This document shows positions 14,255 to 26,313 of a DNA stretch of 64,000 bases, piece by piece. The position numbers were made by a program, and so were the translations under genes. How positions within the stretch are numbered: position 1 is the stretch's first letter; every line of letters starts with the position of its first letter. The notes beneath the pieces were generated by a model. That model was given only the letters and a program-made list of their open reading frames with translations, was not told the DNA's origin and ran no database searches. Source of the DNA: Bacillus sp. NP157 (lineage in GTDB: Bacteria > Pseudomonadota > Gammaproteobacteria > Xanthomonadales > Rhodanobacteraceae); the NCBI GenBank assembly GCA_018889975.1, contig CP076546.1, positions 1,860,001 through 1,924,000 on the forward strand, read 5' to 3'.

Positions 14255-14334
14255 TGGATAAGACCTCGTCGTATTTGCCGGCTCACGGACCCGCCGGCCT
14301 CGTATCAGGGACCGATAGACCGATTTTAGCGGAC

Positions 14335-14835
14335 ATGGCAAAAGCGAAAGCAAAGGACACGGAAAAAGAGGGCCGCGGCACGATCGCGCTGAACAAGCGT
14401 GCGCGCCACGAATACCACATCGACCAGCGGTTCGAATGCGGCATGGCGCTGCAGGGCTGGGAACTGAAGTCGCTGCGTGCCGGCCGGATCAGCTTCGGCG
14501 AAGGCTGCTACGCCATCATCGAGCACGGCGAGGTCTTCCTTGTCGGCGCCCAGATCCCGCCGCTGATCAGCGCGTCCACCCACGTGGTCGCCAACGACCG
14601 GCGCAGCCGCAAGCTGCTCCTGCACCGCGAAGAAATCGACCGCCTGGTCGGCGCCGTCGAGCGCAAGGGTTACACCCTCGTCCCCACCGCGATGTACTGG
14701 AAGAACAACAAGGTGAAGTGCGAGATCGGCCTGGCCAAGGGCAAGCAGGACCACGACAAGCGCGCCGCCGACAAGGAACGCGAATGGGCCGTGGACAAGC
14801 AGCGCGTCATGCGGTCACACAACCGCCTGGGCTAA
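14335..14835 (+). CDS. smpB: SsrA-binding protein SmpB
   Basis: 166 residues. The family blocks NKRARHEYHIDQRFECGMAL, GWELKSLRAGRISFGEGC and the basic tail (DHDKRAADKEREWAVDKQRV) that mimics codon-anticodon pairing are complete. It brings tmRNA to stalled ribosomes. The tmRNA gene itself follows 140 bp downstream on the same strand. The ATG at 14335 gives a lysine-rich N-terminus typical of the family. Confidence 0.97.
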   Translation: MAKAKAKDTEKEGRGTIALNKRARHEYHIDQRFECGMALQGWELKSLRAGRISFGEGCYAIIEHGEVFLVGAQIPPLISASTHVVANDRRSRKLLLHREEIDRLVGAVERKGYTLVPTAMYWKNNKVKCEIGLAKGKQDHDKRAADKEREWAVDKQRVMRSHNRLG

Positions 14836-14845
14836 CCAGCCTCGT

Positions 14846-14868
14846 GTAGGAGCGCGCCCGCGCGCGAC
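14846..14868 (+). repeat. REP-like palindrome copy (last one in the window)
   Basis: A slightly diverged copy (GCGCGCCCGCGCGCG core) between smpB and ssrA. No further copy was found to the right edge. Confidence 0.8.
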
Positions 14869-14915
14869 CACCCCAACCCCAGCAAAACCCCACACCCCAA
14901 ATCCCCCACCGCCCA

Positions 14916-14944
14916 TTGTGACCACCCCACCCCGCCCCTATACT
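14916..14944 (+). promoter_or_regulatory. Sigma-70 promoter of ssrA
   Basis: TTGTGA, a 17-nt spacer and TATACT, 30 nt before the mature tmRNA 5' end; the leader would be removed by RNase P. Confidence 0.7.
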
Positions 14945-14974
14945 GCGGGTTGTAGATTCACCACAGCTTTCCCC

Positions 14975-15367
<393 letters not shown>

Positions 15368-15424
15368 ATATGGCTCATGCCCCCGGTCCATCGGGGAACA
15401 TGACCTGCCTCGGCTGATTCCTTC

Positions 15425-15446
15425 GGGTATCACGCGGGGTATCACG
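15425..15446 (+). repeat. 10-bp direct repeat before the integrase
   Basis: GGGTATCACG occurs at 15425-15434 and 15437-15446, 12 bp apart, the second copy overlapping the integrase start codon. It could be an integrase arm site or an autoregulatory operator. Confidence 0.5.
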
Positions 15447-16984
15447 TGCCAAAGCCTTTGCTGCTGCACCGACCAAGCGGACTCCATGTCCGCTTTTTCG
15501 TGCCTGCCTTCCTGCAACCCTCCCTCGGGCGCCGGTATATCGTTTTGAGCCTGCGCGGTCAGCGGGCCGATGCGGCCCGCCTCCGGGTCGCCCAAATCGG
15601 CTATGTTCTGGGCCACCTCTTCGAGCGGCTCAGGAGCACCCCCGTGACGGACCACAAGGACCTCCTGGCCAAGGCGCTCGCCGCTGTCCGTGGTCCGCAT
15701 GTCGACCTGACCATCGAGCTTCCGGGCGGGGTGCGCATCGTCACCGATGGTTCCGAGCGCGAGAACCTCGAAGCCCGGGGCCTTGCCCTGGAGCTCGAAG
15801 CGCTCCGGCTTGGCGCACCCCCATCGGCAGCTGCACCTGGCCCGGTCCCGGCTAGCAGCCCCGACGACCTCCTGTCTGTTCGCATCGGCAAGTTCGTCGC
15901 GCACATGGAAGGACAGAACCGCAGTGGCAAGAACCTCCTCGACACCGAGCACACGTTGCGGCTGTTCCTCGCCCTGGGCGGTGACAAGCCCGTCCAGCAT
16001 GTCACGGCCGACGACATCGACGCGTTCATGGAGGCCATGCGCTTGTGGCCTGCCAACGCGTCAAAAAAGCCCGCCTACAAGGGGCTGACCCCGTCCGAGA
16101 TTGTGGCCAAGGCCAAACGGGAAGGCTCGCCAGGCCTTGCACCCCGCACGCGGGAAAAGCACCTTGACCGCTTGCGCCTGTTCTTCGGTATCTGGGCCAA
16201 GCGTCGGCTGATTGCCTTCAATCCGTGCGACGGTTTCCAGATCACAAACAAGGCCCAGGATGAGGCACGCTCGCGGGAGCCCTTCTCACCAGACGACCTC
16301 AAAGTCATCTTCGCGCCGGACCGAATCATCAACCCACAACCGCACAAGTACTGGCCGCCCATCCTTGCGCTCTACTCCGGCGCGCGGGTCAACGAAATCG
16401 CACAACTCTTCATTGAGGACATCGAGGAGATCGCGGGCATCTGGGGTATGCACATCCGGCGGCAAACCAAGAACAAGGCTTCCCGCCGTTTCGTGCCTCT
16501 CCATCCCGAACTCATCCGGCTCGGCTTCCTCGACTACGTCAGTGACGTCCGACTGGCCCGGTTTGAGCATGTGTTTCCGGGTTTGACCTGGGGTGAGAAC
16601 GGACCTGGGGATGTCATCGGGGATTGGTTCAACAGGACGTATCTTCGAAAAACCTGTGGTATCGATGACCCTTCAAAGGTGTTCCATAGCTTCCGACATG
16701 GATTTGCCACGGCAGCAGAACGCGCGGGCGTGCCCGACGGCCGCATTGCCCAGTTGACCGGTCACAGTGCGGGCGGCACGGTGCTCAGAAAGCACTACAT
16801 CCAGGTCGCTGACCTTCCCCGCCGGCTCGACGACATCAGCAAGGTGGCGTTTCCGGAAGTCGACCTTTCCCCCAAGAAGCCAGGTTTTTTCGAGCCGTTT
16901 TTGCGACGTCAGCGAGCCCTCGACAGCCGTGCACGCCGGGCAGAGGAAGCGAAGATCAAACAAGCCAAAAAAACGGCCGTTTGA
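15446..16984 (+). CDS. Tyrosine recombinase (island integrase)
   Basis: 512 residues. A variable N-terminal half is followed by a SAM-like core-binding domain (about 145-255) and a catalytic domain with all expected residues: Arg in LYSGARVNEI, His-x-x-Arg in HSFRHGFAT, His in LTGHSAGG and the nucleophile Tyr in RKHYIQVAD. It should catalyse integration and excision at the ssrA 3' end. The GTG at 15446 gives VPKPLLLHRPSGLHVRFFVP, typical of proteobacterial integrases with an N-terminal DUF6538-like segment. The gene looks intact. No excisionase was recognised nearby. Confidence 0.93.
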   Translation: MPKPLLLHRPSGLHVRFFVPAFLQPSLGRRYIVLSLRGQRADAARLRVAQIGYVLGHLFERLRSTPVTDHKDLLAKALAAVRGPHVDLTIELPGGVRIVTDGSERENLEARGLALELEALRLGAPPSAAAPGPVPASSPDDLLSVRIGKFVAHMEGQNRSGKNLLDTEHTLRLFLALGGDKPVQHVTADDIDAFMEAMRLWPANASKKPAYKGLTPSEIVAKAKREGSPGLAPRTREKHLDRLRLFFGIWAKRRLIAFNPCDGFQITNKAQDEARSREPFSPDDLKVIFAPDRIINPQPHKYWPPILALYSGARVNEIAQLFIEDIEEIAGIWGMHIRRQTKNKASRRFVPLHPELIRLGFLDYVSDVRLARFEHVFPGLTWGENGPGDVIGDWFNRTYLRKTCGIDDPSKVFHSFRHGFATAAERAGVPDGRIAQLTGHSAGGTVLRKHYIQVADLPRRLDDISKVAFPEVDLSPKKPGFFEPFLRRQRALDSRARRAEEAKIKQAKKTAV

Positions 16985-22426: not shown

Positions 22427-22675
22427 ATGGGCTGGAACGATCATATAAGCGCGAATATCACCCAAGTGCTGATTGACATGCTCGCGGCTGGTTTCCTGAC
22501 CCCGGAGGACGTCGGATACGACATTGCGATAAAAGTTCGCGACCGTGGGGCGGGTGCGCTCACCGGCGCCGAGCGCGAGATTTATGAAATGGACCTGCGC
22601 CCGTTGATTGAATCATTTGACCAAGGACGCAACGAGCCTGCTGCGCGACATTGGTCTGACGAAGGCGACCGATGA
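22427..22675 (+). CDS. Small protein heading the GT/PIG-L/NodS-like operon
   Basis: 82 residues (MGWNDHISANITQVLIDMLA ...), helical and acidic, with TPEDVGYDIAIKVRDRGAGA and LTGAEREIYEMDLRPLIESF. No known family recognised. GGGAGGGC is an excellent ribosome site. Its stop overlaps the start of the glycosyltransferase (ATGAG), so it is translated as the first cistron of the five-gene operon. It might be an accessory or regulatory subunit; that is inference. Confidence 0.65.
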   Translation: MGWNDHISANITQVLIDMLAAGFLTPEDVGYDIAIKVRDRGAGALTGAEREIYEMDLRPLIESFDQGRNEPAARHWSDEGDR

Positions 22676-23853
22676 GACCCGGCAATCCAACCGACGCCAC
22701 GCGTTTCGTCACACCGTGTCGAAGCAACCTGGGCTCGCTCACTCGCCTCAGGCTCACCGGCTCGAAGTGGCCGTCAACGGACCTCCCCCGTAGCGTTATT
22801 GCCATCCCGGTGCGCAACGAATCGGCGCGGCTTGACGCCTGCCTCGACGCCTTGGCCGCCGCGCAGCATGAGGTGCTCCGACCGCACGGGATCATCCTTT
22901 TGTTCAACGGATGCAACGATGAGAGCTGGCCTACGGCAGCACGGTGGGCACTCCGTGCACCGTTGCCCGTTCTCATGGCCGAAACCCGCCTGCCGGTTAC
23001 TTGCAACCACGCCGGCGGCGCTCGCGCCGCGGTGCTGACCCTCGCGCTTCGGACGTGGGCAAGCGAGTGCGACGCCCGCATATTTACTTCCGACGCAGAC
23101 ACCCGGGTGGCAACGGACTGGCTCATACGTGGGCATGCTGCGCTGGATTCGGGCGCCGATGCCGTGGCGGGTGCGATCATGGTCGACACACCTGAAGAGT
23201 GGCCGAGAGCGCTCCGCCAGCGGCACATGTTGGAGTCGGCCTACGCACAGATGCTCGACGAGATTGACGTCCTTTGCGACCCACTTCCGCACAATCCCTG
23301 GCCGACACACGGCCAGTGTCCCGGAGCGAGCCTGGCCTTCCAGTCCTCCGCACTTCGGCGCTTGAGAGTCATTCCGGCCCCGGCCTCTGGTGAGGATCGC
23401 GCACTCATTGCTGCATGCACGGCGCTCGATTTACGCATCCGGCATGATCCTGATTTCAGAGTTGTCACCTCTGCCCGGATGAAGGGCCGGGCAGTGGGCG
23501 GCATGGCCGACGCGCTGTATCGCAAGGCGTATTTTCGCGACGAACCTTGTGATTCAACCCTTGAGGCGCTCCAGCAGCACATCTTGCGCGCGACGACGCG
23601 GGCGGATGCCCGCCGGCGGTTTCTCTCAGGTATGTCGGCACAGCGCATGGCGCGGCAGATTTGTCTTCCCCTCAACTCGACATCCGGCAAGCGCTTCCGG
23701 TATTTCGGTGCGCTGTGGCAGCATCTCGAAGCCGGCGCTCCTGCCCTTGCCCGCGTACCCATGAATCCTGGCCAGTTGCCTTCCCAAATGACCCAGGCTC
23801 GCCTCTGGTTACGCCGTCGCGCCTCAGCAGAGTGCGGCAGGGTGACTGTGTGA
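22672..23853 (+). CDS. GT2-like glycosyltransferase
   Basis: 393 residues. The GT-A signature starts at SVIAIPVRNESARLDACLDA, with IILLFNGCNDES for nucleotide binding and a DXD-type motif in FTSDADTRVATDWL. It is soluble, without membrane helices, so it probably acts in the cytoplasm on a soluble or membrane-surface acceptor. Starts and stops overlap with the genes on both sides (ATGA upstream, GTGA downstream), meaning tight coupling. Donor and acceptor are unknown. The first 40 residues before the GT-A fold are not recognisable. Confidence 0.8.
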   Translation: MRPGNPTDATRFVTPCRSNLGSLTRLRLTGSKWPSTDLPRSVIAIPVRNESARLDACLDALAAAQHEVLRPHGIILLFNGCNDESWPTAARWALRAPLPVLMAETRLPVTCNHAGGARAAVLTLALRTWASECDARIFTSDADTRVATDWLIRGHAALDSGADAVAGAIMVDTPEEWPRALRQRHMLESAYAQMLDEIDVLCDPLPHNPWPTHGQCPGASLAFQSSALRRLRVIPAPASGEDRALIAACTALDLRIRHDPDFRVVTSARMKGRAVGGMADALYRKAYFRDEPCDSTLEALQQHILRATTRADARRRFLSGMSAQRMARQICLPLNSTSGKRFRYFGALWQHLEAGAPALARVPMNPGQLPSQMTQARLWLRRRASAECGRVTV

Positions 23854-24995
23854 CCGTGCACGCATTCCAGCCAGATGGTCAGGCCGCCCGCGAGGGGGCG
23901 TTGGCCAGCCTCGGCCGGGAGCTGCCGGGCATTGCCGCCCTGGCGTTGCATGACGATATCAACGGCCAGTTTGCTTCCCACGCCGTGGCGCGCATGCGCG
24001 ACGTCGGGATACTGTCGTCGGTGTTGCCTTTGGAGGAAGGCGGTGCCGGCCTCGGCACTGACAGGCATGCCACCGTCACCTTGTTCCACGTCCTTTCCCG
24101 CCTGGGCGCGGCCCACCTGTCGGCCGCGCGCCTCTTCGAGGGCCACGTCAACGCCTTTGGTTTACTGTGGCAATACGGTACTGCAACGCAGCGCTCCCGA
24201 CTGTTGCGCTACGTGCGCGAGGGTGGCCTTCTCGGCGTGTGGAACGCGCCCGAGCCCGGTGCCCCGCTTCGACTGTTGGCCGACGGCTCTCATTTCCGGC
24301 TCTCGGGGTCAAAAATACATGCCTCCGGAGCCGGCGCAATCCGGCGGCCATTGCTGACAGCCCAGACGGCAGACGACCGTCTGCTGATGGTCTGGTGCGA
24401 TGTCGGTGCGGCTCAAGTGGACACCTCGGGATGGCGCATGCAAGGCATGCGCGCCACCGCTACTGGAACGGTGCACCTCGACGGCGTTGTCGTCGACGCC
24501 ATCGAATTGTTCGGAGCTGATGGGGATTACCATCGCCAACCGGCGTTCTCTGGCGGCGCCTGGCGGTTCCTGGCAGCGCAACTCGGGGCTGCCGGAGCAC
24601 TGGTCGACGCGGTTCGGCAATCGCTCAACATCAGCGGGCGAGGTGAAAACCAGCATCAGAGCGCACGTCTGGCCGAGGCCAGCACGCGCCTGGAAACGGG
24701 ACGGTTGTGGACGCAGGCGGCGGCACGGATGGCGGACGACCCAGGCCAGGACCCCCATGACGTCGTGATCTATACCGCCATGGCTCGTCTGGTCGTCGAA
24801 GAGGCAGCGATGGCCATCGTCGCCCTCGCCCAGCGCTCCATTGGCTTGCGTAGCCTGCACGAGGACCACGCTGCTGAACGCATTGCCCGCGACCTTGCGA
24901 CCTATCTGCGCCAACCGGCGCCCGATGCGCTTCGCGACGCTGTCGCTGCGGACGCCCTCAAGTCCCACGGGCCGATGCTCGACCGGTGGCACTGA
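23850..24995 (+). CDS. Acyl-CoA dehydrogenase-like flavoprotein
   Basis: 381 residues with the acyl-CoA dehydrogenase layout: helical N-terminal domain (DVGILSSVLPLEEGGAGLGT), middle beta domain (GVWNAPEPGAPLRLL, LSGSKIHASGAGAI) and helical C-terminal domain (SGGAWRFLAAQLGAAGALVD). The usual catalytic Glu position is not obvious to me, so a reaction other than alpha,beta-desaturation is possible. The start is a GTG overlapping the upstream stop by 4 nt, and the end overlaps the PIG-L start (TGATG). It is third in the five-gene operon. Confidence 0.75.
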   Translation: MTVHAFQPDGQAAREGALASLGRELPGIAALALHDDINGQFASHAVARMRDVGILSSVLPLEEGGAGLGTDRHATVTLFHVLSRLGAAHLSAARLFEGHVNAFGLLWQYGTATQRSRLLRYVREGGLLGVWNAPEPGAPLRLLADGSHFRLSGSKIHASGAGAIRRPLLTAQTADDRLLMVWCDVGAAQVDTSGWRMQGMRATATGTVHLDGVVVDAIELFGADGDYHRQPAFSGGAWRFLAAQLGAAGALVDAVRQSLNISGRGENQHQSARLAEASTRLETGRLWTQAAARMADDPGQDPHDVVIYTAMARLVVEEAAMAIVALAQRSIGLRSLHEDHAAERIARDLATYLRQPAPDALRDAVAADALKSHGPMLDRWH

Positions 24996-25744
24996 TGAAT
25001 CGACTCCCCTCCCTGCGCCCGCCACTTGGTTACCTGCATCGCATGGAGAAGCTGCCGCTATTCTCTCCAGAAGCGGTCCTGCAAGGCCGGTCACTCCTTG
25101 TCATCGCGCCGCACCCGGACGACGAAAGCCTGGGCGTCGGAGGGCTCCTGGCCGCGGCGGCGCGGCAGGGGACCAGCATCACGGTCTGTTTCCTCACCGA
25201 CGGTGAGGCGTCGCACGTCGGGTCATTGACTTACCCCGCCGTTCGCCTGGCCCAGGTGCGCCGTCAGGAGGCTCTGGCGGCACTGGCGGCTTTGGGCGTG
25301 GCGGAAGGAAATGCGCACTTCCTCGGTCTGGGCGACACGCACCTGGGCGAACTTGCCGCTTGTCAGCGTGATGAGATTTGCCTGCGTCTCGCCGAACTGA
25401 CACCGTCGCCCGCCCTGGTTTGTGTCACGGCAGACACCGACCCACACGCCGACCATCAGGCGGCGAGCAGGCTGGCGCGGTCCTTTGCGTGGCCAAGCGG
25501 GTACACGGTGATGCAATACCCTGTCTGGACCTGGTGCGCCAGCCCGCCGCAGTTGCCGTCCGGGGCACCGCATGGCGTCCGGATTGACATCCGGCCTCTC
25601 ATGGCGCGAAAGCACGCCGCAATTGCCGCGCATCGCTCCCAGCTCGGAGCGGTTGTCGACGACGCGCAGCAGGCGTTCGAAATCGAGCCAAATCTTCTGC
25701 GCCATTTTCTCGGTCCCACGGAGACACTGCTGTGGCCGCCCTGA
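24995..25744 (+). CDS. PIG-L/LmbE-type deacetylase
   Basis: 249 residues. The zinc-site motifs of the family are intact: IAPHPDDESLGVGG near residue 40 and PHADHQAA (HxxH-type) near 150. Family members remove N-acetyl groups from GlcNAc-containing lipids or thiol cofactors (MshB, BshB, LmbE). Coupling with a glycosyltransferase and a NodS-like methyltransferase suggests deacetylation of an amino sugar followed by N-methylation. The ATG at 24995 overlaps the upstream stop; a GTG 9 nt earlier is possible. It overlaps the next gene by 13 nt. Confidence 0.88.
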   Translation: MNRLPSLRPPLGYLHRMEKLPLFSPEAVLQGRSLLVIAPHPDDESLGVGGLLAAAARQGTSITVCFLTDGEASHVGSLTYPAVRLAQVRRQEALAALAALGVAEGNAHFLGLGDTHLGELAACQRDEICLRLAELTPSPALVCVTADTDPHADHQAASRLARSFAWPSGYTVMQYPVWTWCASPPQLPSGAPHGVRIDIRPLMARKHAAIAAHRSQLGAVVDDAQQAFEIEPNLLRHFLGPTETLLWPP

Positions 25745-26313
25745 CCTTCGATGAAGCCCATTTCGACGCGCTTTACCGCCGTGATCCTGACCCTTGGAAG
25801 TTCCGGGGCAGTTCGTACGAGCACGAAAAATATGCCGCAACGGTGGCGGCATTGCCCGGTGCCCGGTATCGGCATGTGCTGGAACTCGGCTCCTCCATAG
25901 GCGAGCTGACAGCCCGCCTTGCTGAACGCGCGGAGCGCGTGACGGGCATTGAAACCTCATCCGTTGCAATCGCTGCGGCGCGTCACCGCTGCAGCGCCCT
26001 CCCAGGAGTGTCCTTCATCCACGCGCACCTGCCGGCCGGCGACTGGGCGCTCGAGTCGGATGCCGTCGTGCTCTCGGAGGTCCTTTACTACCTTGCTGAG
26101 GCCGGTGTGAAGTCGGTTGCCGAACGACTGCGACGCTGCGCGCCACTATCGGACCTCGTGCTCGTGCATTGGACCGGAACCACCGACTATCCGCTGGCCG
26201 GTGACCACGCGTCGGACCTCTTCATCGAAGAATACGGTGCCGACGGTTGGAGGCATACGCGCACGCCGGATTATCGGCTCGACGTGTTGAGCCGACAGCA
26301 GAACTCACGCTGA
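25732..26313 (+). CDS. NodS-like SAM-dependent methyltransferase
   Basis: 193 residues. DPDPWKFRGSSYEHEKYAAT at the N-terminus is the NodS signature; the SAM site is VLELGSSIGELTARLAER, with an acidic strand end (VTGIETSS). NodS N-methylates the deacetylated end of chitooligosaccharides in rhizobial Nod factor synthesis. Here it follows a deacetylase, as in the chemistry of NodB-NodS, but NodA and a NodC-type chitin synthase are absent. The GTG at 25732 lies inside the PIG-L gene (13-nt overlap). It ends the operon. Confidence 0.85.
   Translation: MAALTFDEAHFDALYRRDPDPWKFRGSSYEHEKYAATVAALPGARYRHVLELGSSIGELTARLAERAERVTGIETSSVAIAAARHRCSALPGVSFIHAHLPAGDWALESDAVVLSEVLYYLAEAGVKSVAERLRRCAPLSDLVLVHWTGTTDYPLAGDHASDLFIEEYGADGWRHTRTPDYRLDVLSRQQNSR

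Follow-up and report, generated by a model that had tools for sequence, protein, structure and literature searches.

Which product is made by the row of overlapping genes at positions 22427 to 26313 of the window, the 64,000-nucleotide stretch of the Bacillus sp. NP157 genome (contig CP076546.1; Rhodanobacteraceae by its GTDB lineage) analysed here? A sequence-only reading had described five overlapping genes with Nod-factor-like chemistry. The layout was confirmed, as all five frames are open, lie on the forward strand and are joined by ATGA, GTGA and TGATG junctions and a 13-nt overlap. The first frame (22427..22675) encodes an 82-aa protein without a Pfam or NCBIfam family and overlaps the second by 4 nt. 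It is followed by genes for a GT2-type glycosyltransferase (GT) with a GT-A fold (393 aa, 22672..23853; PF00535, AlphaFold2, Foldseek), a flavoprotein with the acyl-CoA dehydrogenase (ACAD) fold but without the dehydrogenase glutamates, a probable group D monooxygenase (381 aa, 23850..24995; Pfam, AlphaFold2, Foldseek, VIA-align), a PIG-L (CE14) N-deacetylase with an intact zinc site (249 aa, 24995..25744; PF02585) and a NodS-type S-adenosylmethionine-dependent methyltransferase (MT), probably a sugar-amine N-methyltransferase (193 aa, 25732..26313; PF05401, fused relatives). It is close to certain that the last four genes are one conserved unit. With a probability of about 0.5 they encode a cytosolic pathway to a stress-linked small glycoside whose amino sugar is de-acetylated, N-methylated and oxygenated.

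The last four genes co-occur in six phyla, which were assigned by organism name and in part by what we take the affiliation to be, and the pattern is far above chance. The objection that the gene order might not be conserved elsewhere therefore fell away. A tblastn search with the PIG-L protein matched 40 plasmid records. Seven annotated loci from this search (Roseomonas, Sulfitobacter, Deinococcus, Bradyrhizobium, Komagataeibacter, Paracoccus and Sphingomonas) have the order flavoprotein, PIG-L, MT on a single strand, and the GT2 gene lies before, after or convergent to these three in 6 of the 7. Within the phylum of the window, Pseudomonadota, the flavoprotein profile matched 37 of 398 genomes (E <= 1e-20). 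The MT gene adjoined the flavoprotein gene in 33 of the 37, and the identical 33 were recovered by the MT search; three of the four genomes without MT were the weakest matches, and the fourth (G277) had PIG-L only. The MT profile also matched 16 of the 361 remaining genomes (E <= 1e-15), partly as long fused frames. Long stretches were obtained from 35 of the 37 genomes, and all four genes were close together in 24 of them. The other 11 had no GT nearby (three), no PIG-L (two), neither of the two (two), the flavoprotein alone (three) or PIG-L without MT (one). The GT match was shorter and weaker in the beta/gamma-type loci.

A scan of species genomes with one peptide pattern yielded at least 519 flavoprotein relatives; it is blind to the beta/gamma type, whose motif differs. 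Eighty of these relatives, a set rich in Methylobacterium, were kept, and their loci contained MT in 66 cases, PIG-L on the same strand in 33 and GT within range in 37; most of these loci are from Methylobacterium, and some contigs break off early. Among the matches listed, the closest named relatives of the flavoprotein came from Rhodanobacter and Dyella. All four genes were also present in Nostoc, Kitasatospora, Hymenobacter and a Puniceicoccaceae metagenome-assembled genome (MAG), and in three of the four Deinococcus loci examined. Deinococcus radiodurans has the flavoprotein and PIG-L genes with MT one gene further, and no GT was seen in the 13-kb stretch examined. The nearest PIG-L gene in Cupriavidus is a distant one adjoining a catalase gene. 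No description of the cassette, nor of a product assigned to it, was found in a literature search of open-access full text, titles and the starts of abstracts, a scope that lends its absence weak support.

In five genomes (G028, G151, G138, G322 and G255) MT is present, and no PIG-L gene stands beside the flavoprotein gene. G028 and G151, both Methylobacterium-like (this label, like alpha and Pseudomonas-like below, is one that we inferred), carry a cassette-type PIG-L gene at a separate site, where a GT2 gene of the cassette type is 2.6 and 1.0 kb away, respectively. A whole-genome search located the cassette-type PIG-L gene of G138 on the same contig, at a distance of about 12 kb, and found none in G322 and G255 at E <= 1e-10. 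The pairwise identities of the four proteins correlate across 43 complete loci with Spearman coefficients of 0.74 to 0.89; this set has no beta/gamma-type loci, as their shorter GT match failed the length filter. Such a correlation would fit a unit that moves together, and common species history also contributes. Methylobacterium has in addition flavoprotein copies with no MT, PIG-L or GT within several kb (L031, L037, L038, L042-L044 and others), and some strains have one flavoprotein copy with MT and one without (e.g. L035/L048 and L028/L056).

The 82-aa gene lies outside this unit, and the conserved set thus numbers four genes, not the five originally counted. Among 61 near genomes, the 82-aa protein has homologues in four of the same genus, all without the cassette and one of them a weak match (E 1.9e-4); a second copy is located at about 386.6 kb in the genome of the window itself. 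The gene is missing from G411 and G415, the only other strong carriers of the cassette in the genus. The protein represents a small genus-level family, and by this distribution its gene is probably a local addition or passenger beside the cassette.

The active-site motifs of the cassette enzymes are intact except for the dehydrogenase glutamates. The GT2 protein (Glycos_transf_2, 25.7 bits) was modelled by AlphaFold2 with a pLDDT of 87.7, and Foldseek matched it to PcManGT, AvpGT, TarP and mannosylglycerate synthase, though the TM-scores relative to the query were low (about 0.36-0.42). Its metal and base motifs, D141/D143 (DxD) and E241-D242, are invariant in 65 of 65 relatives. The description of the GT as soluble was correct: the highest 19-aa mean hydropathy ranges from 0.97 to 1.52 across the locus proteins, and the hydropathy scan detected no strongly hydrophobic 19-aa stretch or membrane segment in any of them.

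A rival reading is an envelope function, in which a lipid- or nucleotide-linked precursor of lipopolysaccharide or exopolysaccharide would be converted and a rare N-methylated amino sugar would appear on the surface. This is conceivable, as the best solved sequence match of the GT profile is the undecaprenyl-phosphate sugar transferase 9hwj, and genes for a GT4 protein and a UDP-galactopyranose mutase adjoin the cassette in D. gobiensis and an Acetobacteraceae MAG (L198:9772-12004 and L082:5037-8354). It is nevertheless doubtful, because the proteins of the window's locus have no membrane segment, neighbour clusters other than the four genes occur in 16 of 75 loci at most, and among the ten neighbour representatives that were annotated there was neither a flippase nor a polymerase nor an O-antigen ligase.

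The zinc and catalytic residues of the PIG-L protein (85.8 bits with the Pfam model), H40, D42, D43, H151 and H154, are kept in 71 of 71 relatives, and its closest solved relatives are diacetylchitobiose deacetylases, followed by TT1542 and BshB1. Its nearest NCBIfam models are BshB1 and BshB2, with scores far below cut-off (BshB1, 72.9 vs 182.5 bits). Bacillithiol and mycothiol are synthesized by BshA/B/C and MshA/B/C, and the cassette resembles these systems in that glycosyl transfer is followed by PIG-L de-N-acetylation in the cytosol. A redox cofactor of this style, with a de-acetylated glucosaminyl core on which oxygenation and methylation replace cysteine ligation, would share the core logic of GT and PIG-L and would suit the catalase genes found nearby in 4 of 36 genomes. 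It is nonetheless improbable. The cassette GT belongs to GT2, whereas MshA and BshA, as we take it, are GT4 enzymes, and MT and the flavoprotein stand in place of a cysteine ligase. BshC is absent from the genome, while the control search matched it in Bacillus subtilis and two others. The best match to the MshC model reached 291.2 bits vs a cut-off of 485.1, and this model has matches in all 14 control genomes, above the cut-off in one. Membership in a characterised pathway of the mycothiol type, which the sequence-only reading had named as a refutation, found no support in the BshC and MshC searches.

PIG-L genes were also seen in a different setting. In the Pseudomonas-like loci L123, L124, L130 and L131 a distance of 7 to 247 nt separates the flavoprotein gene from a gene of the GH13 trehalose/glucan type. 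A second PIG-L gene follows beyond a cassette-type GT gene in three of them (L123, L124 and L131), and L130 has a second PIG-L gene without a GT match.

The closest solved relatives of MT (NodS in Pfam, 51.6 bits) are 4isc, which is named only as a methyltransferase, and then NodS (3ofj), so that NodS is the nearest characterised one. Relatives of MT were also found in frames of 753 to 1218 aa at nine places in the sample, all outside the class of the window. Six of the nine were retrieved, and all six were GT2-NodS-polysaccharide deacetylase proteins. NodS-type enzymes are thus joined with GT2 and sugar deacetylase partners in more than one arrangement, and the deacetylase family differs between these. 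The fused proteins resemble the cassette in joining a related MT domain to a GT2 and a deacetylase, and differ from it in their deacetylase family, in the lack of a flavoprotein and in their size of about 970-1220 aa; we know of no function for them. Those at L176-L181 (e.g. L176:5373-8381) are probably alphaproteobacterial and resemble the chemistry of NodC, NodB and NodS united in a single chain. That the cassette methylates the nitrogen of a de-acetylated sugar is assumed mainly because this coupling recurs. Together with NodS as nearest characterised relative, the fusions support the logic of transfer, de-N-acetylation and N-methylation that had been read from the sequence.

The likeness to Nod factor synthesis has limits. 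In that pathway NodC is a GT2, NodB a deacetylase and NodS an N-methyltransferase, and the cassette shares the reaction types of a GT2, a carbohydrate N-deacetylase and a NodS-family methyltransferase. It differs in having PIG-L instead of NodB, a GT without a membrane segment and an additional flavoprotein. The term Nod-factor-like applies to the reaction types alone. The methyltransferase is not a NodS by NCBIfam (51.1 bits vs a cut-off of 300). The NodA model PF02474 had no match in the genome and likewise none in all 14 control genomes. No NodC was found within the cassette, to which this search was confined: the GT has no hydrophobic segment and no NCBIfam match.

The AlphaFold2 model of the flavoprotein is a confident ACAD fold (pLDDT 92.8). 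Its sequence matches Acyl-CoA_dh_1 in Pfam (31.2 bits) and, distantly, SfnB in NCBIfam (54.1 bits vs a cut-off of 430.9). Nine of the ten best Foldseek matches are titled TdsC, flavin-containing monooxygenase (5z8t), nitrososynthase (ORF36) or KijD3. Rank 1 is 5gj7, titled putative acyl-CoA dehydrogenase, and the next dehydrogenases follow at rank 24 and below; of all proteins listed, the ORF36 nitrososynthase has the highest identity, 25%. The first seven sequence matches of the larger profile were DszC (three), 5gj7, 5z8t, MsuC and TdsC, with ACADs close behind, and the smaller flavoprotein profile gave monooxygenases and ACADs mixed. VIA-align did not separate monooxygenases from true ACADs. 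At the positions that we take to hold the ACAD catalytic glutamate, in the J-K loop and the G helix, glutamate is absent in 117 of 117 cassette-type proteins, which have P, S, A, C or T in the loop and G in the helix. Three ACADs of the same genome, with Glu at one position or the other, served as the reference for these columns, and the sets of 117 and 119 flavoproteins include near relatives and copies without MT.

Group D monooxygenases are not known to carry the dehydrogenase glutamate. As described in PMC6165268, they have an ACAD-type domain and include N-hydroxylases. The cassette flavoprotein combines an ACAD-type domain with empty glutamate positions in the same way. A point against this assignment is that D or E occurs three columns beyond the usual Glu position in 110 of 119 sequences (the other nine being gaps). 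Because of this conserved residue on one side and the monooxygenase-led Foldseek list on the other, the flavoprotein is considered a probable, not a proven, group D monooxygenase. ORF36, KijD3 and DnmZ, which are amino-sugar N-oxygenases of group D, share the ACAD fold and are among the top Foldseek neighbours, but their substrates are presumably dTDP-amino sugars of antibiotic pathways (title of 4kcf) and their identity to the flavoprotein is low. A modified glycolipid whose acyl chain would be desaturated by a true acyl-CoA dehydrogenase is hardly to be expected, since the Pfam domain name Acyl-CoA_dh, VIA-align fold scores level with those of true ACADs and a conserved acidic residue near the usual catalytic position are outweighed by the loss of both known catalytic glutamates and by the lack of an acyltransferase or CoA ligase among the ten annotated neighbour representatives. 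With the glutamate positions empty and monooxygenases leading the Foldseek list, the claim of an acyl-CoA enzyme is not supported, and nothing specific speaks for a lipid product.

In seven Deinococcus records the annotated flavoprotein gene also spans a domain of about 390 aa with weak, below-cut-off similarity to Glyco_hydro_53 and 42. Relatives of this domain are annotated as beta-glucosidase or lie within genes annotated as GT4. Together with the GT4 and mutase neighbours mentioned above, this domain may link the flavoprotein with the chemistry of glycosides. The glycosidase-like domain has relatives in 133 plasmid records overall, and L082 also contains a glycosidase-like gene.

The following pathway to a small glycoside would account for the four enzymes. 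The GT2 would load a small acceptor with an N-acetyl amino sugar, in the simplest case GlcNAc donated by UDP-GlcNAc, and the acetyl group would then be removed by the PIG-L enzyme. The freed amine would be methylated by the NodS-type enzyme, and the ACAD-fold flavoprotein would oxygenate the product, possibly at the nitrogen. It would form a two-component monooxygenase system whose flavin reductase is supplied from elsewhere. In this scheme we infer the donor sugar, the acceptor, the oxygenase step, the order of reactions and that nitrogen is the atom methylated. As a small glycoside, the product probably serves as a protectant or is redox-active. A bolder and quite tentative version, which we consider unlikely at present, is an undescribed, phylogenetically very wide stress metabolite that a mobile four-gene cassette would make when needed: an N-methylated, N-oxygenated (hydroxylamine or nitrone) glucosaminyl glycoside that would protect against oxidants or desiccation.

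The link of the cassette to stress came from promoters and neighbours. In PMC6599016 the EcfG promoter is given as GGAAC-N17-20-GTT. The upstream regions of 90 flavoprotein and 44 GT genes were searched, and the motif occurred overall in 11 of the 44 GT regions, 7 of the 90 flavoprotein regions and 80 of 4500 random windows. Of 19 alpha loci outside Methylobacterium, a subset picked after the first result, 10 have GGAAC-N17/18-GTT upstream of the convergent GT gene, including three from Ancylobacter. At these 19 loci permuted boxes averaged 0.38 matches and never exceeded 4, a number reached when the box was moved by one base; the remaining spacings between 8 and 25 together accounted for 3 matches, and the reversed motif for none. 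Against control by EcfG counts that only 6 of 37 non-Methylobacterium flavoprotein genes have the motif upstream, as do 1 of 53 such genes in Methylobacterium and 1 of 25 other GT genes. The terms acyl-CoA, LmbE and PIG-L are absent from the main text of PMC6599016, which neither confirms nor denies the stress link.

A catalase gene lies within 10 kb of the cassette in the 4 of 36 genomes mentioned above (G143, G255, G138 and G329). The expected number is 0.48, calculated with 22 kb per gene and rounded genome sizes, and the P value of 0.0016 is only indicative, as catalase was chosen after it had been sighted among the neighbours, with three of the four genomes included. Other recurrent neighbours at the 75 loci were GH13 trehalose/glucan-type enzymes (9), LigD (7) and DUF892 proteins (6). 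The window itself carries a DUF892 gene and an Nramp-type transporter gene near the cassette, and no catalase gene is present in it. The cassette would thus probably be under general-stress control in a number of alphaproteobacteria. The stress role that the neighbours had originally suggested is supported in relatives by the EcfG motif and catalase; for part of the alphaproteobacteria the link is likely, but for the cassette of the window it is only suggested.

The setting of the cassette in the window resembles that of an island. The smpB gene, the tmRNA gene ssrA (14975..15367, forward strand; ARAGORN), directly preceded by smpB, and a tyrosine integrase gene directly downstream of ssrA (15446..16981, forward strand; PF00589, 38.1 bits) are consecutive at 14275-16981. 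Islands that have integrated at ssrA are commonly recognised by such a row. The GT gene begins 5.7 kb downstream of the integrase gene, and ssrA is a possible integration site of an island holding the cassette; a second attachment copy was searched for and not found. Strong carriers of the cassette within the genus are 3 of 23 genomes (that of the window, G411 and G415), and two further genomes gave weak matches near 1e-22. The flavoprotein is 68% and 54% identical to its counterparts in G411 and G415.

If the bolder version is correct, the chemistry of amino-sugar N-oxygenases, which has so far come from antibiotic clusters, would be placed in general stress physiology. That its product was missed would be partly due to annotation, in which the key flavoprotein is named acyl-CoA dehydrogenase. 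The cassette is small enough for expression as a whole and for a comparison of metabolites. As six phyla have kept the pathway together and the radiation-resistant model Deinococcus radiodurans has its core, it may point to an overlooked small molecule that helps bacteria to survive stress.

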